Positions 2,160-40,476 of a DNA stretch of 64,000 bases are shown in pieces; the stretch's first letter is position 1; each line of letters starts with the position of its first letter. The translations under genes were made by a program, and so were the position numbers. The stretch is from Branchiostoma floridae. Taxonomy: Eukaryota > Chordata > Leptocardii > Amphioxiformes > Branchiostomatidae. Below the pieces are notes generated by a model, which was not told where the DNA came from, did not search any database, and saw only the letters and a list, made by a program, of their open reading frames with translations. Where the stretch lies: positions 17,976,647 to 18,040,646 of the forward strand of contig NC_049991.1 of NCBI RefSeq assembly GCF_000003815.2. The letters run 5' to 3'.

Positions 2160-2382
2160 CTAGAGTTTCTCGTTGACTACTGTGCTGTACGCTGGTGGTG
2201 GCGGCAGATCGCTGGTACCAGCCGAGTACTGCGTGTTGTAGTTGTCCGAGGTGTTGTAGGTAAAGCCGTACTGAGGTGGGGGTGCTGGTCCCGAGGGCGG
2301 TGGTGCCGAGGGCGCAGGACCGAATCCCCCGGCCGCCGCTGGTCCTGGGTAGGGTTGGGATCCAGGGTACGGCTGCCCCGCA
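2160..2382 (-). CDS. Constant terminal exon (PPxY tail) of the V-exon locus
   Basis: A 3' coding exon of 223 nt that begins after a strong acceptor (pyrimidine tract then ttacag, read on the minus strand; AG at 2384-2383) and ends at a TAG stop at 2162-2160. It encodes about 73 residues, rich in Pro, Gly, Tyr and Ala. PYPG is repeated near its start, and the C-terminus reads PPPPAYSTVVNEKL. PPAY is a PPxY motif, the usual ligand of WW domains such as those of Nedd4-type ubiquitin ligases; such a role here is inference. The first base completes a codon begun upstream, so the incoming intron is phase 2. That phase matches the donors of V1-V5, V7-V10 and V14. No second copy of this exon is visible between the V exons, so it is the best candidate shared 3' end. 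Confidence 0.75.
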
Positions 2383-2486
2383 CTGTAAGAGGAGAATTCA
2401 GTGTCATTATCTTGACGGATAACTTCATTAGAGGAACAAACGCACGATAAAGATAAAGGTAACATCAGTCCCATAGCCATCTTTAA

Positions 2487-2690
2487 GGCTAAGGTCACAT
2501 TTCCAAACCGGGGCCCGGCCGGACAGCTTTTGGAAGCGAAAGGAATGACATAAAAGACATCAAAATACACAAAATGTGAAAATACGATTCATGGGCATGA
2601 TATGTGCATATTTCTAGATATACATTTTAATTTTTCGTTTCTTAAAACATCCCTGCCGGGCCCCGGTTTTGAAATGTGTCGACCTTAGCC
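2487..2690. mobile_element. MITE with TAA target duplication
   Basis: A 204-bp non-coding element with terminal inverted repeats. The left end reads GGCTAAGGTCACATTTCC and the right end is its near reverse complement, followed inward by a ggccccgg-rich stretch on both sides. It is flanked by TAA on each side (2484-2486 and 2691-2693). Three-base TWA duplications and GGC-type ends are typical of PIF/Harbinger non-autonomous elements. It lies in the putative intron just before the constant exon. Related end fragments are visible near 23400-23515 and 26375-26470. Confidence 0.75.
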
Positions 2691-2693
2691 TAA

Positions 2694-3678
2694 GGCCGTA
2701 AGGGCAGTGGGTTGTTATACATTGTGTCTAGGTATTGGAAGGCTGAACCCAAAGCTCTCCTCCCACCGCTGTTAACATCATCAACCGCGACGTCAGGCAC
2801 CTAATTGCACACCTATAGGGAGAAGAGTCATGCGGGATGTCAAGTGCCTTTCAAGCTTACGTCATAGTGTCATGAGCTTGAATGATAACTTCACTAGACG
2901 ACCAGACGTATTGAACCCTCGGGAATAGTACTGTGAAGATAAAATGAATCGGTTAATGGTCATCTCCATCTGTCCGGTTAAGGGCTGGAACCCTGAAAGG
3001 GTGGGGGGGGGGGGTGGCTTATTGTCAACAACTTTTTCAAATAAGTATTCTAAATGGAAATGGTCTATCTAAGCACGGAGATCACAAATGATAGGCAAGT
3101 ATTGAGAAGTACACACGCACGCACGCATACGTCAACTTCGTCATTATAAAAAAAGTAAGGTGATCTCGCCATGAATACTACACATGACCCCGGCTTAATA
3201 TGTACATATTCTACAAGAGTTTTACGAAATATCCTGTTCCCTGTCCACAATTTCTATAAATACCCCTCCCCCCTCAGTGTACCCAGAGTGCAGCGCGCGA
3301 CAGTTCATCCGTGACCTTGCCGACATTTTGTTCTTCTTTCGCCATTACGTACGTGTACAACTTAACAACTTCCCAAGAAAACTTTCTAACGTTACTAACA
3401 AAGAACTCAAACTTGACACACGTAATGGACATACATAGAAGAACACTTCGCTGAACATTGTAACTGTAAATGTACTGCACTTGGCTTGATGATAATCATT
3501 TCTAATCCGTTAACGTTAGTCAGATAAAAAAAGGTTAAAACCTTCTTGGTCAGACGAAGACATGCTATTTTTCAGTGAACGAAAACTACTTGCTGCTTTG
3601 TTTTCGTATGACAAAAGTGAAACTTTGGAAAGCCCTTAAAATGTAGGTAGCTAATCTTCCTGGACGTACAAACTGCCA
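2694..3678. other. Putative last intron between V1 and the constant exon
   Basis: AT-rich non-coding DNA with a G-run at about 3001-3013. At 3280-3330 there is a block (gtacccagagtgca...ccgtgaccttgccgac) that recurs at 6716-6766, and in part at 5019. It appears to mark the edge of the duplication unit that carries V1, V2 and V3. No additional exon was recognised. Confidence 0.5.
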
Positions 3679-3712
3679 TTATAGGATTTCATGATATATT
3701 TTGCCGTGATAC

Positions 3713-4215
3713 CTTGGGTAAGAAAAGTCAGCCATCGGCTGTCCCGGTATCGTTCCACCGAATGCCGTAGGATCGGGAGCCGTGGGCTGTGCGCCCTGTG
3801 GGGGCTGGGGAAGGGTCCCTGCTGCTTGCTCAGGCTGGGAAGTAACTGCCTCCTGTCCGGCCGGACTAGTCGCCGCCTCCTTCGCCGCCCTGCGTTTACC
3901 GCGGGCGCACAAGAACACCCCCGCCACAAGCAGTGCTCCTCCAATGCCGAACATCATCAAAGGCATTAAACTGACGTCTGCCAGTAGGACAATCACGGGG
4001 ATTCCTGACAGTATTATGAATACCGCATGAATAAGGAAGCATACGCCCAGGGTAGTGTATGACCGCGCAGCGCCCGGTCCCGAGAAACTGAGCGGAACCC
4101 CGCCGCCACCGCCACCCCTTCGGCGACCACCACGGCGTTGAAAGTGATGATGATGATGTCGGGCGCGGCGGCCTGCTCGGCCTGCCCGGCCTCCCCTTCT
4201 CTCTCCTTTACCCAT
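3713..4215 (-). CDS. V1: two-TM variable exon, ends at phase-2 donor
   Basis: The start is the ATG of MGKGERRGG; an upstream in-frame GTG also opens the frame but lacks family support. The exon codes 167 residues plus two bases. Residues 1-40 are Arg/Gly/His-rich with five consecutive His. TM1 is about 56-77 and TM2 about 84-103, ending FLCARGKRR. A Pro/Gln/Ala-rich tail ends GQPMADFSYP. The donor is AG|GTATCA, with GT at 3712-3711 splitting an AGG codon after two bases. If unspliced, the frame runs on only to 3679, which would add a short tail. The charged flanks predict a small double-spanning membrane protein. The family is unknown to me, and no catalytic motif is visible. V1 is the closest V exon to the constant exon (about 1.3 kb). 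Confidence 0.75.
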
Positions 4216-4374
4216 CTTGGCATGCACAGAACTTAAGTTAAGACACGGTGACCGACTAATAGCAGCGCCTTACACCTCTTCACAAAGCCGCGTTTCAAAG
4301 TTTGAAACGCAGGTGTACTTCAAAACGCCTCAAGGAAAAAAACAACCTACAGGCCGCCATTATACCTTCGTGAC

Positions 4375-4458
4375 ACACACTGCGTTTACCTGGCGACGAG
4401 GATTGCTCATGTGTCCACAGGAACAATAGTGGCAGATCGGGTTACAACTGAGCTAAAA
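4375..4458 (-). promoter_or_regulatory. Conserved upstream block of V1
   Basis: A block shared with the DNA upstream of V2 (6161-6232) and, more weakly, V3 (7921-8000). Shared features are gcgtttacctggcgacg, then a tccacaggaacaatagtgg-type stretch, gatcgggt, and a CAGCTG-like box with ggataaa. It lies about 160-240 bp upstream of the V1 ATG. Conservation inside otherwise diverged DNA suggests a promoter core for subfamily I. Confidence 0.45.
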
Positions 4459-5486
4459 GAAACCTATCCGTTTGCTCCAATCCTTTTGATTACTTAAATC
4501 TACGGCAATTGTGTAAGAAGAAGACGTAAAGTAGCTTAAGGAGTTGACAACAGTCGTCGACAACATTTCTGTGGTCCGTTGTAACTAGAAATGTGTAAAA
4601 TAGCGTGAACCTTTCACTACACGAAAGAAGTCACCTGTAACTGACCACAACATGGCTGTCAGCGTATTCAGCACATGTGACAGGTAAACAAAGGTGCGGT
4701 ATATAAAGACAAGAAGACCACGTGAGAACGGGCGTGTCGTCTGTGAACACTGTCGGCTTACATAGAACGGGGTACCGTTACAAATGTTGAACTATTGACC
4801 GCGATTGACGTCAACTTTCGAGAGGGATACACATAGACGCAAAAAAACATCTGATCATAAATACAACTAACACCAGAGATACATGCCTCCACTACAAGAT
4901 ATAGTCCCTTTCTTATAAGAAGATTATTTTGACAGGTAGAAGATAGCTATAAGGCCTTACTCAAGTTAGTCTAGGAAGGCATTTATGATGTGCATAAAGT
5001 CAACATAGAGGCCATGACTGTACCCAAAGTGCAATGCACTGTCCCCAAGTCGTCATGAAATACATCAGATTCTACAAATATATATATAACTTAAAAGCAG
5101 TGCAAGCTTTCATACTATGAACGAATGACACGAAAAAAAAAATGAAACTCTCCACTTCTATACCATAACCAACTCTCTGGTCAGGGGAAGTGTGCTTATG
5201 ATTACTGAGAGAAGCATACGCAGGACAATTGCTATGTTGCTTTGTATTGCTGCTGCAGTGTTTTAGGGTAAGGTTGAAGCATTCTTTGCATCGTCCTTGT
5301 TTACCTTGGTCAGAAGGTCATGTTTTGGATAGTGTTCGTATGTGTCTGTCTGTGTGTGTTTTAACACGACAACTCGTAAAGGCCTGAACGAAGTGCCTTG
5401 ATATTTGTTATATGAGTAGGTCTTGATGGCACCTAAAAAGTATTAGATTTTAGACCCCCTAGCTACAACACAATACGCTGTAATAC
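4459..5486. other. Intergenic, V1-V2
   Basis: No gene is recognised. The segment 4651-4735 (catggctgtcagcgtattca... followed by ggtatataaagac) has a clear paralogue at 6382-6465, so the duplicated unit extends at least 450 bp upstream of each coding exon. The rest is AT-rich. Confidence 0.5.
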
Positions 5487-6025
5487 CTCGGATACGAAAG
5501 TCCTGACATAGCCATCGGCTGTCCTGGCATTGCTCCACTGAAGTACATGGGATCGGGAGCCGTCGGCTGTGCGGGTTGGAGAAACACCCCTGCCGTTTGC
5601 GGAGGCCCTGTGGGTCCCACTGTCCCAGTAGTGTCCTGTGTGGTCGGATTTGTAGCCGCCGCCTCCGCCGACTTGCGTTTGGCGCGAGCACACATGAACA
5701 TGGCCGCCACAAACAGTGCACCTCCGATGCCGATCATGATCAGCGGGTAGTAATTTCCTGAGTCAAAGCCCGAGAATATAACAGTCATGGGGATTCCGGA
5801 GAATAGCAGAAATAAGGAGATCATGAACAGGCTGATGCCGGCGGAATAGTATCTCGCTCCAGCGCCCTGCGACCCCGAGAAGTTGAGCGTAATCCCCCGG
5901 CCACCTCCACCACCTCGACGACGGTTCAAGCCACCACCAAGACGGCGGCGCTGTTGAAAGTGATTATGATGATGTCGAGCGCGGCCTGCTCTGGCTCGGC
6001 CACCCCTTCTCTCTCCTTTCCCCAT
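5487..6025 (-). CDS. V2: two-TM variable exon, ends at phase-2 donor
   Basis: ATG of MGKGERRGG. The exon codes 179 residues plus two bases. The head (1-45) is Arg/Gly-rich with HHHNH. TM1 is about 62-84 and TM2 about 94-112, followed by MCARAKRK. The tail is Thr/Gly/Pro-rich and ends GQPMAMSGLSYP, like V1. The donor is AG|GTATTA with GT at 5486-5485, phase 2. The frame continues unspliced to a stop at 5459. V2 is V1's closest relative, and the two share upstream DNA as well as coding sequence, so a whole unit of about 1.7 kb was duplicated. Confidence 0.75.
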
Positions 6026-6160
6026 CTTGGCACAGAACTTAAGACACGGTGATCGACTGCTAGCAGTGCCTCACAGCTCCTCACAAAGCTCTGAAACGCA
6101 GCCGGACTTCACAAGGTCCAAGGAAAAACTACAGGCCGCCATTTTACCTACATGTACGTG

Positions 6161-6232
6161 ACTCACACTGCGTTTACCTGGCGACGCGACCACAGGAACA
6201 ATAGTGGCCGATCGGGTTACAGCTGGGATAAA
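6161..6232 (-). promoter_or_regulatory. Conserved upstream block of V2
   Basis: The paralogue of the V1 block: gcgtttacctggcgacg, ccacaggaacaatagtgg, gatcgggtt, then CAGCTG and ggataaa. It lies about 135-205 bp upstream of the V2 ATG. Confidence 0.45.
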
Positions 6233-7115
6233 GGGAATCTAGCACGGAATGCTCCAATATGTTTAACTTCTTAGGTTTACAACAATTGTGTAAAGAAGCG
6301 TAAGAAGTTGTATAGTAGTCAACATGATACCTGTAGCTAACAAAATGCGTGAATATTAAAATTGCATGTAACAGACCACAACATGGCTGTCACCGTATTC
6401 ATTACACGTGACAGGTAAACAACTGTGCGGTATAAAAACAACCTGACAAGAAGACCATGTGACAGCTTATAAAGAATGGGGCACCGTTACAACTGTTGAA
6501 CTGTTGACCGTGCTTTCGGCAAGGTTTTGGAGACTTACACGCAAAAGCTTTAATTCGTCACGAGATGATCTGACCATAGATACAACTGTGACACTGGCGA
6601 TATAAGACTCCGTTTAAGAGATGTCCTCCTTGTTGCCATCAGTTAATCTGAAAGCTTTTAGGAGTCATTTGAGATATGTGATTGCTGTGCGTAATGTCTA
6701 CATAGAGGTTATGATTGTACCCAGAGTGCAACGCGCGTCAGTGAATCCGTGACCTTGCCGACATTTTGGACCCAAGTTGCCATTGAGATCATTTACGACT
6801 TTTAAAAGAACTGCCAAGCAAGCGTTATTCTTAAAAAAAATACTTCTAGATCTGCTATAAAGAACCTGGGATACGTGTTGGAAATACATGAAAGAAAACG
6901 CTTTTAAACTCTCATCTCCGCTGTTAGACTGTAACTAATCCTCTGGTTAGGTGAAAGTGAATCTGTGCTATTTATGAGTGAAGCAAACAAGACAATTGCA
7001 TAGAGCTAATCATGACAATTGCTCTGCTGCTTTATAATAGTACTGCATTTTGGGGTATGGCTGAAGAATTTTTTATGGCCATTTTCATTACATGTATCAT
7101 TACATGCTGAAATAC
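6233..7115. other. Intergenic, V2-V3
   Basis: Contains the paralogue of the V1 upstream DNA (6382-6465) and the unit-edge block at 6716-6766. No gene is recognised. Confidence 0.5.
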
Positions 7116-7618
7116 CTTGGTTGGGAAATGCCGGACGTGTCCATCGACTGCCCCGGCATTGTGTCACCGTGGGGCATAGCATCGGAAGCCGGTGTTTCTG
7201 TAGGTTGGAGAGACGTCCCTGTCGTTTGATGAGTCCCTGAGTCCCGTTCGACTGCGTTAGTGTTGGCTTCCGCCGCGGTCGGGTTAGTCGCCGCCGCCGC
7301 TGCCTTGCGCTTGGCGCTAGCGCACATGAACACCGCCAACGCCATCAACACTCCTCCGGCGGCGACCATTATCAAATGGTAGTACGAGTTGAAGTTCGTG
7401 GAGAAAACGACGGTGAGAGTGATTCCCGCGATCGTCAGGAATGACGCGAACGCGAACAGCCATATGCCGAAGACATAATGTCCCGTTCTAGAGCCCCGCG
7501 CCATGCCGATGGTACGGTGCAGGTAGGACCCTTGGGGACGATGGCGGCGGTGCTGGTGATGGTGCACGCGGCGACCGCCTGCCCTGGCCCGGCCGCCTCG
7601 TCTCTCACCCTTCCCCAT
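7116..7618 (-). CDS. V3: two-TM variable exon, ends at phase-2 donor
   Basis: ATG of MGKGERRGG. The exon codes 167 residues plus two bases. The head holds VHHHQHRRH. TM1 is about 48-72 and TM2 about 81-101, followed by ASAKRK. The tail is Ala/Thr/Glu-rich and ends MDTSGISQP. The donor is AG|GTATTT with GT at 7115-7114, phase 2. The unspliced frame ends at about 7100. Sequence and upstream DNA place it in subfamily I with V1 and V2, slightly more diverged. Confidence 0.73.
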
Positions 7619-7920
7619 CTCGGCACAGAACGGACACAGTCACCTACGTCTGAATGCTAGCCCAATACTAGTACTCCTCTGTGGTCTGCTGCTGCAATGG
7701 CATGGACACTCTGCAGCTGCAATCAGTCGATCTTCAACTCTCTCCACTGTGTCTTGTTCTTGTTCATCGCGAGCTTCCTTAGCTCCCGTGTTGTAGTATT
7801 CTTTCTGACCGCAACGATCCTGGTCCAATGTCTTTCAGGTCTGCCCCCAGTAGGCTCGGTGTCTCACTATCTCATTGAACAACCGCGTTTACAAGTCTAC
7901 ATTACCTGTATGCATGTGCC

Positions 7921-8000
7921 ATACTCTGTGTTTACCAGTTGAACTTGGTTGCGTCCACAAAACCAACAATGCCTGATCGGGTGTCAGCTGGGATAAAAGA
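7921..8000 (-). promoter_or_regulatory. Diverged upstream block of V3
   Basis: Recognisable from tgtgtttacc, gcgtccacaaaaccaacaat, gatcgggt, CAGCTG and ggataaaa in the same order as upstream of V1 and V2. It is farther away here, about 300-380 bp from the V3 ATG. Confidence 0.4.
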
Positions 8001-8047
8001 GGCCTTGCAGTACATTGCTTAAAATCTCTTTGCCCCCTTGTTCAAAG

Positions 8048-8171
8048 TACTGTAAATGCAATGGCATCCATTTAAGTTTGCGGGGACTTATTTTCGCGGT
8101 AGCGGGAAAATGGAGTGTTTGCGGTGGTTTTGAGCGAAGCGAACACCGCGAAAGTTTCTGCATTTACAGCA
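8048..8171. mobile_element. Palindromic MITE, TACTGTAAATGC ends
   Basis: Ends are TACTGTAAATGC on the left and GCATTTACAGCA on the right, with cgcggt/accgcg-rich internal sequence. The same ends bound a longer copy at 17209-17430. Non-coding. Confidence 0.6.
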
Positions 8172-9050
8172 CAAAAAATATTGCAAGCTTAAGGCGTCGT
8201 GAATAGTTAGAAACTTCCGTGTCGCATTGTAGCTGAGAAAAAGCACGGACCTTTTACTTTGTAAAAGAAGTGACAGCCGAGTACGACACCGAATACTGCC
8301 GTATCACAAAAACGGGATACCGTTACAACGGTCGAGCTATTGACAGTGCCTTTGGCAACGTTAATTAGACATGGACACAAAGGAAGCACTACGTCACATT
8401 TGTGTGGGGTCAAAGGTTACAGACCTTTGACCCGTCCGACATTCAAAAGGAGAGCAAGATTATAACGACTAAAAACCACAAATAGACTGAAGTAATGGTG
8501 ACAGCACATAAGCCTCCTTGAACTGTTACTTATGAGATATTTGCTGTTGTTGTCCTCAGACCATTTAGGTGATAACTGAAGGTTTAGAAGGACAATACAA
8601 CAAGGTTTGATCACTTAAGTTAGAACATGACGGGGTTGTGTAACAGGTGTCAATATCTCCATATGCAGAGGGTAAATGTTGGCGAAGCTTGCTGCATGTA
8701 GATTAGTCATCCCAAAACAACAGCAGGTAATTCTTTAGTTATTTTAATCGTTTATCACAGATTTTATGACCCTTACGACAATGAATAGTTGTTAAAGTTA
8801 AAATAATTAATGGCTTTGGGCATCACGTCTTTTTGGACAAAATATATCTGTTTACAAAATATAGACATATGTATAATAATAGAGCTGAGTGTTAGCTTGA
8901 CATTCCCTCTGTGACGGTATGATCTATTCTGAAGCAGGACTTAGCTCCGAATTTTAGAAAAATGAAAAGTTTGACCTATCTATTTTCGACTTAACAGTTA
9001 AGTGTGTTTAACACTTAACAGGGGATATCAAAAATGGACATGGTCTGTAC
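8172..9050. other. Intergenic, V3-V4
   Basis: AT-rich. No gene, RNA gene or PPxY-type terminal exon seen on either strand. Confidence 0.45.
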
Positions 9051-9619
9051 CTGAAGTCGGGATATGGAGGGGGTTGCTGGAAGCCTGGGTCCGGAAGCGA
9101 CTGTTGCAGTCCCCCGACAGATAGGGTTTGCATGGCGGTTCCCTCTACCTGCGGAACCCCCTCCTCCACTTGTTGCACCTGTGGCGTGGCGTCGTTGTTT
9201 TGTGCGCCGTTCCCAGCCTTACACCGGAGACCCCACGCCACCAGAATCTGTAGGATCCCGAAAGCCAGCATGGCGTAACCAAAGTAGGGGAGAACGCCAC
9301 CCGATCCTCTGTACATCACCGTCAGGATGATACCAGGAATCAGACAGAAGATTCCAAACGCGACAAGACGTGACTGTATCTGCGACCGTGCCGACTGATT
9401 TCTTGCAAAGACGACGTTGGAAACGCCCGTCGACGCCCCTTCCCCCGTACGGCAACTAGAACTAGAACTAGAACTAGAACTAGAACTAGAACTAGAACTA
9501 GAACGACCCTGGCGGTGTCTCCGTCGGTTGTTGTTGCGGCGGTGGTGCTGGACTCGGATTCTCCTGCGGCGACCCGCGGCCCGGCGACCCGCTCTACCCC
9601 TCGCCTCACCCTTACCCAT
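9051..9619 (-). CDS. V4: two-TM variable exon with Ser tract, phase-2 donor
   Basis: ATG of MGKGEARGR. The exon codes 189 residues plus two bases. The head is Arg-rich with QHHRRNNNRRRHR, followed by about 16 consecutive Ser (residues 40-55) encoded by a hexanucleotide repeat. TM1 is about 84-103 and TM2 about 109-131. The tail ends LPDPGFQQPPPYPDF; PPPY is itself a PPxY motif, unlike the other V exons. The donor is AG|GTACAG with GT at 9050-9049, phase 2; the unspliced frame ends at about 9008. It shares GIILT and the TM spacing with its neighbours but no upstream block, so it stands alone between subfamilies. Confidence 0.72.
9454..9505. repeat. Hexanucleotide microsatellite (aactag)n inside V4
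   Basis: About eight copies of aactag on the plus strand. Read on the coding strand it is AGTTCT, giving poly-Ser. A multiple-of-three repeat can change length without breaking the frame. Confidence 0.9.
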
Positions 9620-10534: not shown

Positions 10535-11127
10535 CTTTGCTGTCCTAGGTTTGACATCATCTCTTGATATTGGGGGCTGGACATTGCTTGTTGAAGCTGA
10601 GGGTTTTGCTGAGCGAGGTTTGCCATCATCTGTTGATACTGAGGATTGGCCATCATCTCTCGCTGTTGCTGTTGAACTTGAGGGTCTTGAATTTGCTGGA
10701 AGAGCGCAGACATCATCTGCTGAAGCTGAGGGTTTTGCTGCTGCTGCTGCAGGCCTACAACAGTCAGACCGTGCATGGTTGTGCCGTCCGACTGCACCGT
10801 CACTCCTCCAACCTGTTGCGCCTGGGTGGTGGGGTTGTTCCGGGCCTCTTCCCTGACCTTATGCGACAGCACGATCGACACCAGAAAGAGTAGACCCGCG
10901 AACCCGAGACAGCTGTACCCGATGATGGCCGGACCCTCCGGATCGCAGCAGAATAACGCTGTCAGGGTGATACCAGGGATGAGGAGTAAACAACTCATCA
11001 AACCGAGTCGTATCTGGATTCTTTGTGTCCGTGTGAGTGGTCCTGCTTCAACACCGAGACCGGGTGACGTCCCTCCCCAGGCGCGGTATCCAGAAAAAGG
11101 GTGGTGCCGTCCTGCTGTCCCACTCAT
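10535..11127 (-). CDS. V5: two-TM, Gln-rich variable exon; canonical start lost
   Basis: The usual MGKGE start is absent. The homologous DNA reads aatagtaaaggcgag, one base shorter than V7's aatgggtaaaggcgag. The first ATG in frame is four codons on (MSGTAGRHHPF). The open frame extends further upstream, but only from a TTG. From this ATG the exon codes 197 residues plus two bases. TM1 is about 41-60 and TM2 about 67-87. A Gln-rich tail of about 11-residue repeats (NPQLQQMM, NPQYQQMM, SPQYQEMM) ends SNLGQQ. The donor is AG|GTAACG with GT at 10534-10533, phase 2; an in-frame stop follows at once if unspliced. Whether the shortened head is functional is unclear. Confidence 0.65.
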
Positions 11128-11196
11128 CTCGCCTTTACTATTAACACGTTGAAACGCCTGGCAGCGGCAGTGGCATGGCTTACTGTGGAATCGACT

Positions 11197-11365: not shown

Positions 11366-12077
11366 TACTAAAAGCAGCAAAGACATTCAGTTTTGAAGCG
11401 TCGATGTCCCAGAGTGCACACAATGACTATGTATATATCGTATATATCCATACTCATAGATGTGACAAACAAATGACAAATTGTCACCAACCGAGCGTTA
11501 TGGCATACAGGCTGCACCGTCAAAGTTAAACAAGACTCGACGTTACGTTAATGACCGTGGTAGGTCTGTATGTACGTAGGTAATTAACAGTAGACGAGTA
11601 GTTCAGAGAAATCAATTTTCAGTATTATTGCCTTGGTGAGATGAAATTTTTGCTGATTATGTACATTTCTTAACTTACTGGTCCTAAGCATATCTATTAT
11701 TCTTACCGCCAAAGTTTAGCGCTTGTTGAGCTTACAAGTCAAGGACTTTCTGGACAGAAGGAAGCCGTTTCCATAGAAAAATTTACATATCCGAGTGTTA
11801 ATTGGACAAGACACGAACCCAAAGATGTCCTCTTACGCGTCCGCAAGACGACATATTAAAACGACAGTGCCTATTGAAGCAGGGGGATGTAAGCTCGGAG
11901 TTAAAGAAAATACAAGAACAAAGAGAGTTGTACCGTAATCGTATATAGACCTGTCTTTCACTCCGTTTGTATCCGCTTGTTTGCATATGTATGTGTGTAT
12001 GTATGTAGAAGACCGTACGAAAGTCGCTGTTCCTTTGTTCTGTCAATAAAGATGATCAAGCATATGGCCATTTGCAT
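11366..12077. other. Intergenic, V5-V6
   Basis: Duplicated unit sequence with close copies at about 12925-13249 and 13813-14220. At 11697-11699 it preserves the empty TTA target that is filled by a MITE in the copy at 13247. No gene seen. Confidence 0.55.
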
Positions 12078-12676
12078 TTATCTTTGCTGTCCTAGGTTTG
12101 ACATCATCTCTTGATACTGGGGACTGGACATCATCTGCTGAAGTTGAGGGTTTTGCTGGGCGAGGTTTGCCATCATCTGTTGATATTGTGGGTTAGACAT
12201 CATCTGCTGAACTTGAGGGTTCGACATCATCTCTCGTTGTTGTTGCTGCATCCTCTGTTGAAATTGAGGGTCTTGCATTTGTTGGCTGAGCGCAGATAGC
12301 ATCCGTTGCTGGCCTACCACAGTCAGACCGTGCATGGTTGTGCCGTCCGACTGCACCGTCGGCCCTCCCACCTGTTGTGCCTGTGTGTGTGGGTTGTTCC
12401 GGGCCTCTTCCCTGACATTATATGACAGTGCGATCGTCACTAAAAAGAGGAAACCAGCGAAGCCGAGACAGCAGTACCCTGCAATGGTCAGACCCCCCGG
12501 TTCGCAGCAGAACATCGCTGTCAGGGGAGGAGTAGCATGAAGGTCAACAAACCGGCCAGTCTCTGGATTCTTTGTGTCCGCGTGAGCGGTCCTGCTTCAA
12601 CACCGAGACCGGGTGACGCCCCTCCCCAGCCGCGGTATCCAGAAAAAGGGTGGTGCCGTCCTGCTGTCACATACAT
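12078..12676 (-). pseudogene. V6: decayed two-TM variable exon
   Basis: A close copy of V5/V7 with three lesions. First, the MGKGE start is replaced by AACAGTAAAGGCGAG, as in V5, leaving only a downstream ATG at 12676. Second, where V7 reads gtcagggtgataccaggg, V6 reads gtcaggggagg on the plus strand. This is a net 10-base loss that shifts the frame between TM1 and TM2. Third, the donor is AG|ATAAAT instead of AG|GTAA, at 12081-12080. The remaining open frame, 12515-12078, holds TM2 and an intact Gln repeat tail. It is most likely a pseudogene. A sequencing error could explain the deletion but not all three changes. Confidence 0.75.
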
Positions 12677-12745
12677 CTCGCCTTTACTGTTCACCCGTTG
12701 ATACGCCTGGCAGCGGTAGTGGCATGGCTTACTGTGGGATCGGCT

Positions 12746-12912
12746 TGCCCATGTCAGTGTCGAAATAATATTATGCTCAGTTCAAATCACACGAAACGCG
12801 CCGAATGTACCGACACCTTCGGTACCGCCTTTTGTAGAATAGCTTTGCGTTCTATAGAACAGCTAATTATAAAGACGCGAGGCTTTAGGGCTACTGTAAG
12901 AAAATCGTCAGT
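12746..12912 (-). promoter_or_regulatory. Upstream block of V6 (paralogue of V5 block)
   Basis: Shares cgccgaatgtaccgacacc, gaatagctttgcg, TTCTATAGAA and attataaaga with the V5 block at almost the same distance from the coding exon. Confidence 0.35.
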
Positions 12913-13249
12913 ACTAAAAGCAGGAAAGACATTCATTTTGAAGCGTCGATGTCACAGAGTGTACACAAGAAGGACTATGTATATATCGTATATATCCATA
13001 CTCATAGATGTGACAAACAAATGACAAATTGTCGCCAACCGAGCGTTATGGCATACAGGCTGCACCGTCAAAGTTAAACAAGACTCGACGTTACGTTAAT
13101 GACCGTGGTAGGTCTGTATGTACGTAATAGGTAATTAACAGTAGACGAGTAGTTCAGAGAAATCAATTTTCAGCATTATTGCCCTGGTGAGATGAAATTT
13201 TGCTGATTATGTACATTTCTTAACTTACTGGTCCTAAGCATATCTATTA
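12913..13249. other. Intergenic, V6-V7, proximal part
   Basis: Unit sequence homologous to 11366-11700, interrupted at 13249 by a MITE. No gene. Confidence 0.5.
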
Positions 13250-13812
13250 GGCCCCGTTCATGATGCAAAAATTAATGCGGATGCATCCGCATGTGCGTCC
13301 ATCCGATCATGATCCGCATGCAAACGGTTTACAGTTTGTGTCCACGATGCCAACGGGCAATCCGTTTCAGATCCGCGTCAGGGAATTAGAACATTACGCA
13401 ACAACAGAACATTGCGAAAAAGATGGCGGATCCCCAGCTGTTCTTGTTAGTGTTTTTCCTGAAAATGCTGTGTGCCCGCGGAAGGGAACGTACGAGGCGG
13501 CAGCGACGAAAGGTTTTGTGCCTTGACCTGGCTGCCGCCAGATGCGGCCGCTAAAATTTCACAGTTTCCCGCGTCACGGCGCGAACTTTGACCCCACGTT
13601 ACCCGGATGTAATGCGGATTCACGCCTCATTTGCGTTCATGATGACAGTTCGCAAATGCGGATTTAAAAAAATCCGTTTCAAATCCACCTCCCGAGGTGG
13701 TCCCGAAAAATCCACATCAAATCCGTTTCGGAGCATTCATGATGAGAAATTTATCAGCATCGGCCAAAAATGCGGATCCATCCGCATTAATTTTTGCATC
13801 ATGAACGGGGCC
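13250..13812. mobile_element. PIF/Harbinger-like MITE, 563 bp, with paralogous empty site
   Basis: Terminal inverted repeats of about 40 bp, with ends GGCCCCGTTCATGATGC and its reverse complement. Inner repeats of atgcggat/atccgcat occur. It is flanked by TTA on both sides (13247-13249 and 13813-13815). The paralogous unit at 11691-11705 reads ctattattctta with a single TTA, so this is a clean insertion. The open frames inside have no transposase features. Confidence 0.88.
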
Positions 13813-14229
13813 TTATTCTTACCGCCAAAGTTTATCGTTTGTTGAGTTTACAAGTCAAGGTCAATAATTACGACTTTCTGGACAGAAGGAAGCCTTTTCC
13901 ATAGAAAAATTAACATATCCGAGTGTTAATTGGACAAGACACGAACCCAAAGTCGTTCTCTTACGCATCCGGAAGACGACACATTAAAACGACAGTGCCT
14001 ATTGAAGCAGGGGGATGTAAGCTCAGAAGAAAATACAAGAACATACAAGAACAAAGAAAATACAAGAACAAAGAGAATTGCACCGTAATCGTATATAGAC
14101 CTGTCTTTCACTCCGTTTGTATCCGCCTGTTTGCATATGTATGTATGTAATATGTAGAAGACATTGCGAAAGTCACTGTACTTTCGTTGTGTCAATAAAG
14201 ATCATTAAGCATATGGCCATTAGCATTAC
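13813..14229. other. Intergenic, V6-V7, distal part
   Basis: Continuation of the duplicated unit (compare 11700-12077), with a short local duplication of acaagaacaaagaaaat at about 14035-14075. No gene. Confidence 0.5.
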
Positions 14230-14858
14230 CTTTGTTGCCCTAGGTTTGACATCATCTCTTGATATTGGGGGCTGGACATTGCTTGTTGAAGCTGAGGGTT
14301 TTGCTGAGCGAGGTTTGCCATCATCTGTTGATACTGAGGACTAGCCATCATCTCTCGCTGTTGCTGTTGAACTTGAGGGTCTTGCAATTGTTGAAAGAGC
14401 GCAGACATCATCTGTTGAAGCTGAGGGTTTTGTTGCTGCTGTTGCAGACCAAGAACAGTCAGACCGTGCATGGTTGTACCGTCCGACTGCACCGTCACCC
14501 CTCTCACCTGTTGTGCTTGAGTGGTGGTGGGGTTGTTCCGGGCCTCTTCCCTGACCTTATGCGACAGCACGATCGAGACCAGAAAGAGTAGACCCGAGAA
14601 GCCGAGACAGCAGTACCCGGCAATGGCCGGACCGTCCGGTTCGCAGCAGAACATCGCCGTCAGGGTGATACCAGGGATGAGTAGCATGAAGGTCAACAAA
14701 CCGACCTGTCTCTGGTTTCTCTGTGTCCGTGTTAGCGATCCTGCCCCGGCACGGAACGCGAGTGACGCCCCTCCTCCACCATGGTGCCTCCGATTGTGGT
14801 GGTGTCGTCCGCCAACACGGCGTCTTCCCGCTCTTCCCCGCCTCTCGCCTTTACCCAT
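14230..14858 (-). CDS. V7: two-TM, Gln-rich variable exon, phase-2 donor
   Basis: ATG of MGKGERRGR. The exon codes 209 residues plus two bases. The head contains GGRHHHNRRHHGGGG. SLTRTQRNQR precedes TM1 (about 52-71), and TM2 is about 78-99. Then HKVREEARNNP, a VTVQSDGTTMHGLTV segment shared with V5, V6 and V9, and a Gln-rich tail of NPQ/SPQxQQMM repeats ending SNLGQQ. The donor is AG|GTAATG with GT at 14229-14228, phase 2. It is the only subfamily II member with an intact canonical start, so it is the reference for the damage in V5 and V6. Confidence 0.75.
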
Positions 14859-15680
14859 TCTTAAGACAAAGCTTTAGAGTCACCTTCAGCAAATCGCCAA
14901 CACTAGAAGCGGATTGAACACTTACGTTTGGAAGCGCCGGTGTCACAGAGTGCTACGAGAGCACACAATGAGGATTATGTATGTAGATGTATCCACGTGA
15001 CATAGAAAACAAACAGGTGTTGGTACGCCAGCCAAGCGTTACGGCCTACAGGACGTACTCAGGTTAAAAATAAACAAGCCCTACGTCACTCTCTGACAGG
15101 ATAGGATTATCTGCAAAGGGATATCACGGTAGTTGAAGGAAGAGGGGGAAGCAATGCTCGTTACAATATCTTGGACGTCAACATGCTGTAGAAAGCCCAC
15201 ACACCAACTTTTACATGTCACATTGTATTAGGGTTGCGACAGGGGCACGGAATTTGCGTGCCATTCCAGGGTGATAAACAGACAACCATCCATTACCAAA
15301 CAAAGCTATGCACGCTATGCTGTGTGTTGGTTAGTGTCATTGCTTAGATCATACTATTTTATGTTGAAGAAATAGTACACATGGGATTAGCTCTAATAAA
15401 CTCGTCAAACTTCTTCGAAGGGCGGGATGTAATAAAGCGTAAATACAAGCCCCGCCCATCCCATTACGTGTTGTCCAGGCCATTTGAAACTGTTTAAATC
15501 TTCACCAGGGTACGCAGAAAATCAAGTAAAAGTAATTTTGATTATGACTGCATTCCCTATTATGTTAATTACTTTTTCATTTTAGTATTTTACAGTGTAA
15601 ATTTTACAACTTATTATTTTCTCTGTATTATCTTAGATATAGTAGTACATTTGTAACTGTGGAAACATACTTTGACTTGA
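14859..15680. other. Intergenic, V7-V8
   Basis: No gene is recognised. It lacks the long upstream block seen at V5 and V6, so V7's promoter must differ or is truncated. Confidence 0.45.
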
Positions 15681-15776: not shown

Positions 15777-15832
15777 AACAATATCTCTGTGTTTGGGGAG
15801 GTAACAAAGGAAAATACACCAGAGATACATAC

Positions 15833-16425
15833 GTCATGTTTGACCAGTCGGTCGCAGCATTCCCGCCAGTTTGGTTAGACATGGCTGTCATCATGTTTGT
15901 CACCATGTCAATGACAGTTTGCCCGTCTTGGTTGACGGTTGTCGTGGTCACGGTCGCCGTCCCCGTGGCGTCGCTGATGACGGTAACCCCCGGCTGTCCC
16001 TGTGCTTGTGCACCGGCGGCGCGATTCTCTTTCCACTGCCGGTTACAGGACCACAAGCCGACCAGGAAAAGCAAAAATCCGACGCCTAGAACACATGCAC
16101 CCACAGCTACCACGCCGCTACCCGTGGAGGCGAATATAGCCGTAAGCATGATGCCGACTCCGATCATGAAAAATCCAAAGAAGCACAGACATATGCCGAG
16201 AACAGTTTTCTGGGGAGTCCCGGGCCCAATATGTATCGTCCCTCCGCCTCCACGTCTCGCCCCTCTACTGCGAAAGATATGTCCTCGGCGGGCTCGTGCG
16301 TGGTGGAGGTGCCCGATGTGATGCCGGTGGCCGGCACGGTGACGGTGGCCGGCAGCTCGGCGGTGCCCCCCGGCCCTTCGCCCGCCGGCCCTTCGCCCGC
16401 CGCCCCGCCTCTCACCTTTCCCCAT
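15833..16425 (-). CDS. V8: two-TM variable exon, phase-2 donor
   Basis: ATG of MGKGERRGG. The exon codes 197 residues plus two bases. The head is exceptionally rich in Arg/Gly/His (residues 1-60, with HRHRAGHRHH). TM1 is about 75-98 (ending GIMLTAIFAS) and TM2 about 104-126 (VAVGACVLGVG), followed by CNRQWKENR. The tail is Thr/Val/Asn-rich with VNQDGQTV and few Gln. The donor is AC|GTATGT with GT at 15832-15831, again splitting a codon after two bases. Unspliced, the open frame runs to 15628 through repeat DNA, which argues that the spliced form is the real one. First member of subfamily III. Confidence 0.72.
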
Positions 16426-16851
16426 CGGAAATCACTGATTGTTGTTGATGTTGTCAACGGTTGTAGTAGTCTGTAGTCCGTTGTAGCAACCACCTGTCGT
16501 GGGTGACAGCTCTTTACGACTCTTGAAGTCTTGTTTTAACTGCTCTGCTAAAGAAAGTCTCCAAGTTCCAGCTTTCGACACTCGAGCTCTCTCAACTTTT
16601 CGTTTAGCTGAGCATCACCTACACCAAGAGCCCTGTAATGCGTACTAATGGTTTACAAACGTCAACTCGTCTCTCCCCACCACTTGTTGATGGTTGTCGT
16701 GGGTCAGTGCCCTAATTAAAGGTATTGTCCTGGGATCCGGTGACGCCTCCTTATTAGATCCAAGTCAAACACTCCAACCTACTGCACATACGAGGCACTA
16801 CGAGGCAGAATACAAACTACGCTATATAGCAAATACAGGAAGTTTGGGAAG
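16426..16851. other. Proximal upstream region of V8
   Basis: Shares segments with DNA upstream of V9 (gatccaagtcaaacactc and gaggcactacga). No gene. Confidence 0.45.
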
Positions 16852-16890
16852 GTGTGGCCTGACCCAGAAAGGTCACAGAATCCCAGAATG
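16852..16890 (-). promoter_or_regulatory. Conserved TGACCC-n4-AGGTCA element upstream of V8
   Basis: TGACCCAGAAAGGTCA at 16860-16875, within gtgtggcctgacccag. It is repeated upstream of V9 (18945-18960) and in altered form at 21015-21030 and 21325-21340. Two AGGTCA-like half-sites point away from each other with a four-base gap, a nuclear-receptor-like arrangement; that reading is inference. Confidence 0.4.
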
Positions 16891-17208
16891 GTATCGCACC
16901 GGAGTTTTGCCTAGCTCCTGTCAGCCACGGTGCCGTCTGTGTAGGATCTATGGTACTAAATGTTGCTTGATGTGTACTTAAAATATGTTTAGTTTCTCAG
17001 CAGACAGAATAATCGCAAATTCAGCCGATAGATGAAAACCGGAATCTAATGAATGAAGACCTTTCTTGCACATTTTTGCCCCACTTGGCTAATAATGAAG
17101 ATGCCATGATGATGACTTCTGCAAAGTAATGGGTCTCAGCGAATGGTTACCAGATATCTTGTGACTGACTGGCCAAGAGTCAATTGTTCAAAGCCGTCAA
17201 CCCAGGAA
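16891..17208. other. Intergenic, distal upstream of V8
   Basis: Nothing recognised. Confidence 0.4.
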
Positions 17209-17430
17209 TACTGTAAATGCAGACACTTTTGCGGTGTTTTGATATTCACGGTTTTGGCAGCAGTGGCCGCTTTATCGCGAACTTAAAACCACCGTGAATA
17301 TTTTTCCATGGCAGTAAGAGACTACAGTGTATGGTGCTACCGCGAAATTAAAACCGCCGCGAAAAGTCCTTTTCCCGCTACCGCGAAAAATAAATCCCCG
17401 CGAACTTAAATGCTAAACCCATTTACAGTA
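17209..17430. mobile_element. Palindromic MITE, TACTGTAAATGC ends
   Basis: TACTGTAAATGC at the left and ATTTACAGTA at the right, with multiple accgcgaa/ttcgcggt motifs inside. It is longer than the copy at 8048-8171 and related to it. Non-coding. Confidence 0.7.
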
Positions 17431-17711
17431 TGCGTTGCACGGGTATAGTTTTACATACAACTCAGTAAGATGCGTTGTTGATAATACGTATAAGGGCAAT
17501 CATTCGTGGTTGTATACAAGGTATATGACAAGCAAGTGACAATGATAATAGATAAGATCAATAATACACATAAAATGACATACTCTTTCTGTGCTTAGAT
17601 CTATATTCTATCTACCAATTTTCATACGAATACCTGTGACACATACTGTCATACCATTCTGATTTAGTCTGCCCCTCCCTTTATCATCATTAAAATAGGT
17701 ATGATCCATAC

Positions 17712-18529
17712 CTTTGCTGACCCATGCTTGACATCATCTGTTGAAATTGAGGGTTTTGCTCGGCGAGGTTTGACATCAACTCTTGGTATTGTGGGTTAGA
17801 CATCATCGCTTGTTGTTGTTGTTGCATCATCTGTTGAAATTGCGGGTTGGACATCATCTCTTCCTGTTGTTGGCTTAGCGTCTGTTGGAATTGAGGGTCT
17901 TGCATTTGCTGAGCCTGGCTAGACCACATCTGTTGAAACTGAGGGTCTTGCATCATCTCTCGCTGTTGTTGTTGAACTTGAGGGTCCTGCATTTGCTGGA
18001 AGAGCGCAGACATCATCTGTTGAAGCTGAGGGTTTTGTTGCTGCTGTACGCCGACTACAGTCAGACCGTGCATGGTTGTACCGTCCGGCTGCACCGTCAC
18101 CCCTCCCATCTGTTGTTGCGTGCTGCTGACAGTTTGACCATCTTGGTTGAAGGTTGTCGTGGTCACGGTTGCTGTGTCTGTGGCGTCAAATCCCGGCTGC
18201 TGTCCCTGTGTATTGGCGGCGGAACGATCCTTATTCCGCTGTCGGTAACAGCAGCACAAGCCGGCCAGGAAAAGCAGAAACCCGACGACTAGTAAACAGG
18301 CACCCACAGCTACCACGGCGCCACCCGTGGAGGCAAATATAGCGGTGAGCTTGATGCCGATTATGATCATTACAACTCCAGAGATGGACAGACTAATGGC
18401 AATGCCAGTTTTCTTGGAAGTCCCGCGGCCGGGCCCGATACGGTAGCGGACAGCTCTGCGGTGCCCCCCGGCCCGGGCCCTTCGTCCCCCGGCCCTTCGA
18501 CCGCCGCCCAGCCTCACACCCTTCCTCAT
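17712..18529 (-). CDS. V9: two-TM variable exon with longest Gln-repeat tail
   Basis: ATG of MRKGVRLGG, a variant of MGKGERRGG. The exon codes 272 residues plus two bases, the longest of the tandem V exons. The head is Arg/Gly-rich. TM1 is about 43-67 (ending LTAIFAS) and TM2 about 72-94 (VAVGACLLVVG), followed by CCYRQRNK. Then VNQDGQTV-like FNQDGQTV, the VTVQPDGTTMHGLTV segment, and many NPQFQQMM, DPQVQQQQREMM and DPQFQQ repeats ending SSMGQQ. The donor is AG|GTATGG with GT at 17711-17710, phase 2. It combines subfamily III membranes with the subfamily II tail, so it may be a recombinant. The repeats look like STI1/ubiquilin-type NPxxxxMM repeats, which is only a resemblance. Confidence 0.75.
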
Positions 18530-18938
18530 CGTGAACCACCGATCGTTGTTGTTGTAGTCTAGTAGTTGGTTGGAGCAACCACTTGTCGTGGCCGTGGGTG
18601 ACAGTTCTTCACAACTCTTTAACTCTTAAAGCTTGTTTAAACCGCTCTGCTAATCCAAACTGTTTCTTTCCAAACTCCCTATCTGTTCGTTGACCCGAAC
18701 AACACCTTCACTTTAGCCTCGTAATGGTCTACAAACGTCAACTGGCGTCTCCCCGCCAGTTGTTGATAGTTGCCGTGGTTCAAATCCTTAAAGGTACTGT
18801 CCTGGGGTCCAGTGATGCCTCATTATGAGATCCAAGTCAAACACTCAAATCTATACTTCACAGAAAGGACATACGAGGCACTACGACACAGAGTACAAGT
18901 ACGCCGCAGATATAATCAAACAGGAAGCTCGGATAGGT
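18530..18938. other. Proximal upstream region of V9
   Basis: Homologous in patches to 16480-16850 upstream of V8. No gene. Confidence 0.45.
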
Positions 18939-18975
18939 GTGGCCTGACCCAGAGAGGTCATAAAAGCCCAGAGTA
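18939..18975 (-). promoter_or_regulatory. Conserved TGACCC-n4-AGGTCA element upstream of V9
   Basis: TGACCCAGAGAGGTCA at 18945-18960, followed by taaaagcccaga as at V10 (21031-21042). It is about 415 bp upstream of the V9 ATG. The V8 copy has the same spacing. Confidence 0.4.
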
Positions 18976-20022
18976 GTCACGCAACCAGGGTTTTGTCTCG
19001 CGCCTACTAACTACGATTGTTGCCGTGTCAATTTGATTTTTTTGCTGAATTATTAACGCAAATCTCAGGCGATTGATAAAAACCGGGATTTAACAAAATA
19101 TCTTACATGCGTCAAGGTCATATCATGGAAAACAGTGTAATAGTAGAAGTTCCTCATTATTCATTCCAATTAACTGTCAATTTGCATAAATTGCATCTCA
19201 TTGTCGATGTCTTTGTTTAAGCTACAAGTATACCGATTATTTTTGAAACCCTTTGTTTCTTTATTAGGTTATCCTCCTTGAAAGGATCATTCTAAACAGC
19301 CCTGCAGTTCCAGACCGAGCTGCTAGGAGGCCGAAAACTACATTTTCTTCTTCATTACATCACAAGCTATTTGTCACCTGAAAAGCAGAACCATAGCATG
19401 TCCAGGTCAAAAGATACTGCTGCAGTGCCAAGATCAAACACCAGGGGCCCCCTAAAGTTACCTCGACCTTTGTCTTCCCAACATTTATCTACATACGAAG
19501 TATAATTACAATCCATCCAGAGGTTCTAAAGTTATGCTGACCACAAATATCCGGACACACAACCACACAGACAGACAGACAGTCACACCAAAAACTATTC
19601 CTCTATTTTTCATGGAGGTAATGAAGATGGTGATGACTGTCTCACAGCAAAAGGGTCAGGGAATAGTCCTTTACCTATCATGAGACTGACTGGCCAGAAA
19701 GAGTCATTTCAAAGCCGAATCCATTAGAGATATGCATTCAACGGATATCATTTTATAGCTATTTTGTATGAATTATAATGCTACATTTAAGATGCGTTGT
19801 TGACGCGACATTAAGGCCGATTATTTGCGTCAGCTATGTTTAATATTTACGCAAACCGGTGAACATTGCGTAAATAGTTTACAATATAAAACGACAAGCA
19901 AATGACAAGAATCATTATTATACATGTACACAAAATGACACACTCACCCTGTGCTTAAATATTCTATCAATTTTCATACGAATACCACTGATTTCATGAT
20001 GTACATTATAGTAGGTCCATAC
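18976..20022. other. Intergenic, V9-V10
   Basis: AT-rich. A short acagacagacag run lies at about 19568. No gene or terminal exon seen. Confidence 0.45.
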
Positions 20023-20639
20023 CTTTGCTGGCAAATGCTTGACATCATCTGCTGAAATTGAGGATTTTGCTGGGCGAGGTTGGATATGGTCTGTTGAAAT
20101 TGAGGGTTAGACATCATCGCTTGTTGTTGTTGCCGTATCATCTGTTGAAATTGTGGGTTGGACATTATCTCTTGTTGTTGCTGGCGTAGCGTCTGTTGGA
20201 ATTGAGGGTCTTGCATTTGCTGTGCCAGTTCGGACCACATTTGTTGAAACTGTGGGTCTTGCATCATCTGTTGTTGCACGCTGGCAGTTTGCCCATCTTG
20301 GTTGATGGTTGTCGTCGCTGTCCCCGTTGTGTCAATCCCCGGTTGTTCGCGTGCCGCATTGGTGGTGGAGCGCTTGGCATTCTGCTGTCGTTTACACAGC
20401 CAAACGCCTGCTCCTAAAAGCGCAGCCCCGACGCCTAGAACACAGGCACCGACAGCTACCACTCCGCTACCCGTGGTGGCAAACATAGCTGTGAGCATGA
20501 TGCCGATTATGATCATTAAAAATCCAAAGAATGGCAGACAAAATCGAGGATCAGTCTTTCTAGGAGCCATTCCTGTGTGTCTCCCGGTCCTTCGTACATG
20601 TACGCCGCCTCCCCACCGAGCACCTCTAGATCTCTCCAT
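20023..20639 (-). CDS. V10: two-TM, Gln-rich variable exon, phase-2 donor
   Basis: ATG of MERSRGARWGGG; the MGKGE head is replaced. The exon codes 205 residues plus two bases. The head is short and basic. TM1 is about 33-53 (GIMLTAMFAT) and TM2 about 59-81 (VAVGACVLGVG), followed by CKRQQNAKR. Then INQDGQTA, and MQDPQFQQMW, NPQFQQM repeats ending SSICQQ. The donor is AG|GTATGG with GT at 20022-20021, phase 2. It lacks the QSDGTTMHGL segment of V9. Subfamily III. Confidence 0.72.
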
Positions 20640-21530
20640 CTCTTGAAACGCAAATTGTTGCTGTGACTTTTCTCGCGCTGTACGTTATAAGCCCTTAATT
20701 GTTGCGGAGGCCACACAGCTCTATTGAACTGTCGAAGTGTCGTTTAAAATGCTTTACCGAGAACTATTTCCTGTTCCTTTCCAAACTCTGTCACTGACTA
20801 TGCTCTTCGCTGAGTGGATGAGTCACACCCATAACTTGGCAACCTCAGTGCTTATATACGTCAGCAAGGTTTCCTCACTAGTTCTTGTAATACATGTAAC
20901 TGTCGCCAGGGGTAGACAAAATCTATTATTCACTCCAGGTTGGTGTAATATTTTGGTGTTTATTTAAGCCACGCTATGCAATAGTGGGTCAAATTAAAAA
21001 GGGTGACATTAATGTCACCCAGAGAAGTCATAAAGCCCAGAAAGACACCAAGGTTTCGCTTACTACTTTCAACAACGCTGCTTTTAATAGAAACACATAG
21101 ACAATTGTTTTATTTTATTTTATTTTATACGCAACTCACATGAATCCTACGGTGCGCACAAGTGTTTACAAACGGACCCTAAGATTCGTAAGTCATACAC
21201 TTAGGCTGCTTCACAAGTCTGATAGAACCACATAGGAAATATGTAGACTGCTATGAGGTTTGGGAACTACCCACTACGATACCTAGTACAAGACAGGAAG
21301 TTGGGAGAGTGCGAAATGATGACGTCACCCAGAGCAGTCAAATCCAAGAATGGTCTCGCACCGAGGTTTGACTCGCTCTTGTCAACCAGCGGCACAGTTA
21401 GAAATACTGGGAAGTTTTTAATCAAGATGGTGTCTCTGATAAACAACACTTCGTTTACATTTACAGACGAGAGGGTCAAGATGAAAGAAGATATGCCCTG
21501 GATTTTCTATTTGCTAGACATAATTTCTTC
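20640..21530. other. Intergenic, V10-V11
   Basis: No gene seen. It carries two altered copies of the subfamily III upstream element (21015-21030 and 21325-21340). The second may be the relic promoter of a lost exon between V10 and V11. gggtgacattaatgtcaccc at 21001-21020 is a perfect palindrome. Confidence 0.45.
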
Positions 21531-22046
21531 TTATTGTGCGTTATCCTCATTTGTTGATACTGAAGGTCTTGCACTTGTTGATACTGAAGGTCTTGCATTT
21601 TTTGCGCCAGACTGTACCTCGCTTGTTGAAATTGAGGATTTTGCCACAGAAGCTTGCTTTTTCTGCTTTTGTTCCTGCATGGTGGTTACAGTATGTTGAC
21701 GTTTGGATGTTGTGGTCAATGGCGTTGTCACTGTCGCTGTAGCTTCGCTGATGACGTCACCGTATGGCTGTCCCTGGGACTGTTCACCAGCGGCACAGTC
21801 GTCCTTCTGCTGTCGGTTACACGACCACAAACTGCCTCCCAAAAGCAACGCCCCGACACCTAGAACACAGGCGCCCACAGCTACCACTCCGCTACCCGAG
21901 CTCGAAGCAACAAACACAGCGGTGATGCCGGCTCCGATCATGAAAAACGCCACGAAGGCCAGACGTATGCCAGCAATGGTCTTGTAATAGTTCGGCCGTC
22001 CCTCCCATCGGCGGTGAGTCCCACCCCACCTCTTCCCTTTCCCCAT
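21531..22046 (-). pseudogene. V11: two-TM exon with shifted Gln tail and no usable donor
   Basis: ATG of MGKGKRWGG. The head and both membrane segments (about 24-47 and 53-72) are intact, followed by CNRQQKDD. The open frame gives 171 residues, but its tail is Ser/Val/Lys-rich and unlike the family. Read in another frame, 21640-21541 encodes family repeats (NPQFQQ, MQDLQYQQ, VQDLQYQQ), so the tail is frame-shifted. At the position of the family donor, V5 reads AG|GTAACG while V11 reads AG|GATAACG. The head and membranes could still yield a stand-alone protein, but as a member of the spliced array it looks inactivated. Confidence 0.65.
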
Positions 22047-40470: not shown

Positions 40471-40476
40471 GTAGAG

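Follow-up and report, generated by a model that had tools for sequence, protein, structure and literature searches.

A candidate cluster of tandem variable first exons with one shared PPxY-tail exon in Branchiostoma floridae

The window analyzed here, a 64,000-nucleotide stretch of the Branchiostoma floridae genome (NC_049991.1, positions 17,976,647–18,040,646), carries on its minus strand a cluster of 13 related coding exons, V1–V13 (Table 1). Nine of them (V1–V5 and V7–V10) end in a splice donor, and four (V6 and V11–V13) are broken or lack a usable in-frame donor. Beyond V1 lies a single terminal exon, with its acceptor at 2382, whose phase fits all nine donors. We propose from these sequence features, and with a probability of about two in three, that this is a variable-first-exon locus with one shared tail. 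Transcription would begin upstream of one V exon, and the chosen exon would encode two membrane helices, preceded by a basic N-terminus and followed by a cytoplasmic stretch that varies between copies. Splicing would then skip any intervening V exons and join the donor of the chosen exon to the acceptor at 2382, so that every product ends in the same 74-residue tail. Through its PPQY and PPAY motifs this tail would be recognized by the WW domains of NEDD4-family ubiquitin ligases. As membrane adaptors or cargoes, the products would have ligase recruitment in common and differ in their membrane module.

An earlier note on this DNA had likened the arrangement to the logic of the clustered protocadherin (Pcdh) and UGT1A loci. 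The likeness is upheld by phase-matched donors that homology shows to be conserved within two old sets of copies, by a tail whose one significant match in the genome is itself, by the lack of a convincing rival terminal exon, by upstream DNA particular to subfamilies, and by the broken and donor-less copies. That all nine V exons are spliced to the tail at 2382, that each has a separate promoter, and that the choice among them is regulated is what we infer.

Results

Splice donors of the V exons

All nine GT donors proposed in the earlier note are present, and each splits a codon after two bases. Those two bases are AG in eight copies and AC in V8, and all nine donors read GTA. AGG is the junction codon in eight copies; of the 142 Arg codons within the nine exons, 13% are AGG. 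When joined to 2382–2160, every one of the nine exons yields a single open frame, of 241–346 residues.

By donor-matrix scores, the named GT is the best of any phase within 150 nt in six of the nine copies (V1, V2, V3, V5, V7 and V9) and second in three (V4, V8 and V10); among phase-2 GTs in the final 200 nt of the open frame it is the best in eight of nine. The position of the GT is fixed by homology only within V1–V3 and within V5, V7, V9 and V10. Local alignments of the region from −60 to +900 around the donor were made for the 36 donor-bearing pairs, and 8 of these align across the donor. The V5/V7 alignment, which V6 also joins, continues for 380–500 nt past it. The other seven end at +10 (V1/V2 and V2/V3), +7 (V9/V10) or +3 (V5 or V7 with V9 or V10), and some pairs have separate later blocks, for instance V2/V3 (V2 +200 to +851) and V9/V10 (V9 +73 to +185 and +516 to +619). 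V1–V3 have 17 invariant ungapped columns out of 45 in the exon, 4 out of 6 at +1 to +6, and 4 out of 24 at +7 to +30; the corresponding counts for V5, V7, V9 and V10 are 32 of 45, 4 of 6 and 1 of 24. With all nine copies anchored on their GTs, the invariant columns between −60 and +60 are −19, −7, −2, +1, +2 and +3, where +1 and +2 are invariant by construction, since the GT itself, rather than homology, set the position of V4 and V8.

A first alternative is that only V1, or V1–V3, is joined to the tail, and that the other copies are single-exon genes which run on through a donor-like site and stop a few codons later, resembling the Pcdh-beta genes, which have no constant exons. We judge this unlikely. 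Read without splicing, the frames do close soon after the split codon: at once in V5 and V7, and after 4 codons in V3, 6 in V9, 8 in V2, 10 in V1, 13 in V4, 15 in V10 and 67 in V8. Poly(A) hexamers lie 302 nt past the V4 donor and 178 nt past that of V10, and V11–V13 already appear to be tail-less. What unspliced copies leave unexplained is that GTA and the exon preceding it are kept while the C-termini past the donor vary in length and sequence, both among V1–V3 and between V9 and V10. V5 and V7 retain GTA although the next codon is a stop in place of the Tyr codon of V9 and V10. Identity at +7 to +36 is 13–47% in the 13 pairs computed besides V5/V7 (36 are possible). Neither AATAAA nor ATTAAA occurs from 19265 to 8748; in V5–V9 the DNA after the donor is therefore free of both hexamers over at least 1.78 kb, which counts against single-exon genes there. 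The donors kept in V5, V7, V9 and V10 would speak against a tail confined to the proximal copies. These four are less independent than whole-exon synonymous divergence (dS) implies, because in their exchanged 3′ part V9 differs from V5, V7 or V10 by a dS of 0.56–0.60.

The tail exon and the search for others

The terminal exon has the acceptor CTCTTACAG/TGCGG and encodes a protein segment that reads SAGQPYPG...DLPPPPAYSTVVNEKL. Its compatible phase and its PPxY motifs are as the earlier note described. The exon stands out from its surroundings in G+C content (0.64, vs 0.41 in the preceding 223 nt and 0.31 in the following 223 nt). The minus strand between 1001 and 24000 encodes three PPxY motifs, two of them in the tail and one in V4. 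A search of the genome assembly (513,431,437 bases in 431 contigs) returned the tail itself at E 3.5e-40, and the next of the five matches had E 1.86; the next match in a relaxed local search of the window (E 0.007) was on the opposite strand inside V8. No homologue of the tail was recovered elsewhere in genome or window, in a genome search that scores the best candidates only and may miss a short or unrelated terminal exon. An acceptor at 2526, with a good pyrimidine tract and AAG at the site, opens an upstream extension of the tail to 122 codons, and the tail exon may alternatively begin there.

If each subfamily instead had its own unrelated terminal exon between the copies, the cluster would be several ordinary two-exon genes. 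Donors kept in two sets would fit such an arrangement, and weak or short exons may escape detection, but we consider it decidedly improbable. From 22046 to 2161 the minus strand has 1164 AG sites, 43 of which are at least as rich in pyrimidines as the tail acceptor, carry a pyrimidine at −3 and lack AG from −15 to −3. In the required phase the frame opened by 2382 is 74 codons long, and no other of these sites opens more than 48. When these acceptor criteria are dropped, most longer in-phase frames run into V exons. Outside the V exons, frames of at least 74 codons follow the sites at 14175 (83 codons), 12032 (78), 12026 (76), 6920 (74) and 2526 (122), and only 2526 has a good pyrimidine tract. 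The in-phase open stretches that could favor separate exons, at 6920, 8295, 12032 and 14175, have a pyrimidine content of just 0.35–0.59. The donor sites of V6, which is dead, and V7 precede the sites at 12032 and 14175, respectively, by about 50 nt; with such weak acceptors, and with no counterpart listed after V5, the open frames that follow V6 and V7 were set aside as exons. In the scans of acceptors and frames no convincing second terminal exon appeared between the copies, in line with the earlier note. In-frame AG sites that might allow splicing from V exon to V exon precede V1, V2, V5, V7 and V9, with a pyrimidine content of 0.35–0.71.

Upstream DNA

Conserved upstream DNA particular to subfamilies had been noted before, and alignments confirm it. 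Similarity upstream of the exons reaches 68% over 516 columns for V1/V2, 93% over 494 for V5/V6, 71% over 489 for V8/V9 and 68% over 941 for V12/V13; farther upstream, V4 and V5 share 72% over 840 columns. TATA-like strings precede two of the nine V exons. For the 53-bp non-coding element that follows V1 and V3, the genome search gave no match besides these two. A 17-base core taken from the V3 element matches the window only after V1, V2 (5019–5035) and V3; one of these three matches is by construction, and shuffles average 0.15.

Control through CTCF, as in Pcdh clusters, was considered and rejected, since two sites with at most one mismatch occur in the 64 kb and 6 of 100 shuffles equal that number. 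One CTCF-like site, with one mismatch, is at 704–717 on the plus strand, beyond the tail exon.

Encoded proteins

Two hydropathy peaks typical of transmembrane (TM) segments, with a short loop between them, are present in all 12 copies examined (all except V6). The N-termini of these copies hold 7–31 Lys, Arg or His residues and 0–2 Asp or Glu. By the positive-inside rule both ends, and hence the tail, would be cytosolic. Ahead of the donor, V5, V7, V9 and V10 encode Gln/Met-rich repeats of the NPQFQQMM type. The claim that each V exon has its own start holds with a reservation for V5, which has lost the MGKGE start and would begin at the ATG at 11127.

No Pfam family, cadherin and glycosyltransferase domains included, reached its cut-off in ten sequences (V1–V4, V7–V10, V11 and the tail). 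A TMEM100 match to V9 was sub-threshold (E 2.9e-4; 20.9 bits vs a cut-off of 34) and was not accepted as membership; a sub-threshold STI1/HOP match to V10 (E 0.0043) is only a lead. The best hit of a profile search against solved structures had E 0.22. An AlphaFold2 model of V7 had a mean predicted local distance difference test score (pLDDT) of 60, and Foldseek found no match to it at E 0.001 or better.

Protein searches of the genome used V8, V2 and V7 as queries, with which distant members may be missed, and gave 13, 8 and 14 matches, respectively, at E up to 1. All those at E 0.001 or better fall inside the cluster; three lie outside it, with E 0.24, 0.69 and 0.89.

Divergence and selection among the copies

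A tree of the copies supports the groups V1–V3, V5/V7, V11–V13 and V12/V13, and V1/V2 less so; V8, V9 and V10 do not resolve as one group. Residues 31–137 of V9 share 67% identity with V8 and about 30% with V5/V7, while residues 138–182 share 86–91% with V7/V5. This mosaic suggests exchange between copies.

For dS the nine donor-bearing copies were divided into the subfamilies V1–V3, V4, V5/V7 and V8–V10. NG86 estimates of omega, the ratio of nonsynonymous to synonymous divergence, were 0.27 for V5/V7, 0.33 for V9/V10, 0.48 for V8/V9, 0.44 for V8/V10, 0.40 for V1/V2, 0.39 for V2/V3 and 0.55 for V1/V3. Pairs of donor-less copies gave 0.86 (V12/V13), 0.73 (V11/V13) and 0.62 (V11/V12). Bootstrap 5–95% ranges were 0.57–1.31 for V12/V13 and 0.49–1.15 for V11/V13, compared with 0.31–0.76 for V8/V9, 0.24–0.46 for V9/V10, 0.19–0.39 for V5/V7 and 0.29–0.58 for V1/V2. 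Relaxed constraint in V11–V13 is suggestive only. In the 3′ half of V6, NG86 omega is 0.17–0.18 against V5 and V7 (YN00, 0.51 against V7), and from this low value V6 probably broke recently.

On a third alternative a single two-exon gene would have had its first exon duplicated in tandem, the copies would now be decaying, and their donors would have no function. This is highly improbable. V6 is broken, V11–V13 look degraded and YN00 omega is fairly high, but nine frames remain open although dS between subfamilies is at least 1.19 or undefined in each of the 29 pairs among the nine, and the bootstrap 95% limits of NG86 omega are 0.39–0.76 in the four donor-bearing pairs tested.

Points against a shared tail

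Several observations weigh against a tail shared by nine first exons. The NG86 contrast in selection is weak because YN00 ranges lie close, from about 0.57 (V5/V7) to 0.85 (V8/V10) in seven donor-bearing pairs and from 0.76 to 0.88 in the V11–V13 pairs. In V8 the named GT is outscored in phase by the one at 15670 (2.1 vs 0.3 at 15832). Six donors (V1–V5 and V7) lack G at +5, and donor strength alone is therefore little proof. Homology does not anchor the donors of V4 and V8, and the drop in similarity past the donor would partly be expected without splicing, because the frames stop soon after it. No promoter motif or k-mer common to the nine copies rose above shuffles. To these are added the hexamers past V4 and V10, the reach of the genome search, the longer tail that the 2526 acceptor would give, and a distance of 857 nt from the tail stop to its nearest poly(A) hexamer.

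Features of the window

The coordinates of the cluster are collected in Table 1. V12 and V13 lie outside the range covered by the earlier note (2160–22046). Within V4, a serine run at about 9453–9503 (minus strand) is coded by a simple repeat of the TCTAGT type. Downstream of V7, at about 13248–13812, an insertion with inverted ends resembles by eye a miniature inverted-repeat transposable element; it is missing at the matching place after V6.

Table 1. Positions of the V exons, the tail exon and a conserved element in the window (a slash marks the exon boundary).
Feature	Position	Strand	Remarks
Constant terminal exon	2160–2382	minus	74 codons including the split first codon; PPQY and PPAY; stop codon at end
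Conserved non-coding 53-bp element	3278–3330 (after V1), 6716–6768 (after V3)	minus	92% identical
V1 first exon	3713–4215	minus	donor 3712, AAG/GTATCA
V2 first exon	5487–6025	minus	donor 5486, GAG/GTATTA
V3 first exon	7116–7618	minus	donor 7115, AAG/GTATTT
V4 first exon	9051–9619	minus	donor 9050, CAG/GTACAG, not anchored by homology; own PPPY ahead of donor
V5 first exon	10535–11127	minus	donor 10534, AAG/GTAACG; ancestral start gone, next ATG
V6 pseudogene	12079–12760 (approximate limits)	minus	broken frame; donor GT changed to AT
V7 first exon	14230–14858	minus	donor 14229, AAG/GTAATG
V8 first exon	15833–16425	minus	donor 15832, GAC/GTATGT, least certain; outscored by in-phase GT 15670
V9 first exon	17712–18529	minus	donor 17711, AAG/GTATGG; mosaic of V8-like and V5/V7-like parts
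V10 first exon	20023–20639	minus	donor 20022, AAG/GTATGG
V11	21534–22046	minus	two-TM frame, open; C-terminal part offset from that of V10; no recognizable donor
V12	24007–24456	minus	two-TM frame; TAG ahead of ancestral donor site
V13	26921–27364	minus	two-TM frame; TAG placed as in V12

The neighboring genes are of animal type. Pieces of NXPE-like genes, in tandem by eye, occupy 34413–50001 on the plus strand, and two open frames scanned in this region matched NXPE4_C (PF24536; E 2.8e-57) and neurexophilin (E 6.3e-8). An open frame of about 430 residues at 50573–51877 (minus strand), two-TM by eye, had no Pfam match at cut-off.

Discussion

Where a locus has many first exons but a single common end, promoter choice is linked to protein diversity. 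For the cluster described here we tentatively entertain a stronger claim, namely that a non-vertebrate chordate has, independently of the protocadherins, a promoter-choice locus with nine selectable membrane modules on one ligase-recruiting tail and a distal group without a tail. Clustered Pcdh diversity is described as confined to jawed vertebrates (PMC5775551). If the claim is true, a separate origin, a compact cluster of about 25 kb, a constant region of one exon and tail-less distal members would make the locus a simple test case for how such loci arise and for how distant donors find one acceptor. An unnamed two-TM family would also become a source of candidate NEDD4-type adaptors, and the locus would offer cells a choice of membrane adaptors that serve protein turnover.

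The earlier note knew of no described locus of this kind. That view needs qualifying, since the organization has precedents in Pcdh-alpha/gamma, UGT1, GCNT2 and the chelicerate sDscam genes; the family and its PPxY tail would be new. Among the leading results of literature searches, which covered few subscription papers, no account of this B. floridae locus appeared.

A close parallel is with the vertebrate Pcdh-alpha and -gamma clusters, which also combine tandem variable first exons, coding for a membrane-spanning part and a variable cytoplasmic piece, with one constant cytoplasmic end; the Pcdh-beta members, which have no constant exons, recall V11–V13 (PMC7811963). The Pcdh-alpha and -gamma proteins belong to another family and have an ectodomain and one TM segment, whereas two TM helices are predicted here. 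Their constant region has three exons against one, and own promoters, CTCF sites and stochastic choice are Pcdh features. In UGT1 and GCNT2, too, variable first exons stand in tandem ahead of common downstream exons, some copies are pseudogenes or relics, and the clusters turn over by birth and death (PMC1885805). The constant part of UGT1 differs in being a donor-substrate-binding domain with a TM segment that anchors it in the endoplasmic reticulum; here it is a short proline-rich PPxY tail. Among invertebrates, chelicerate sDscam genes have tandem 5′ variable cassettes with alternative promoters, as reported in PMC5775551 and PMC4835542. They encode immunoglobulin (Ig)-domain receptors, and their cassettes code for one or two N-terminal Ig domains and not for the membrane part.

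At the level of the protein, there is a likeness to yeast Sna3p, a small protein with two TM domains that interacts through a cytoplasmic C-terminal PPAY with Rsp5p, a ligase of the NEDD4 family (PMC2171029). The likeness is one of layout only and homology is not claimed; no variable-exon system is described in the available portion of that source. The PPAY of the shared tail likewise stands close to the end of a two-TM protein, and by analogy with Sna3p and Rsp5p we propose that PPQY and PPAY would bind WW domains and link the products of this locus to NEDD4-type ligases.

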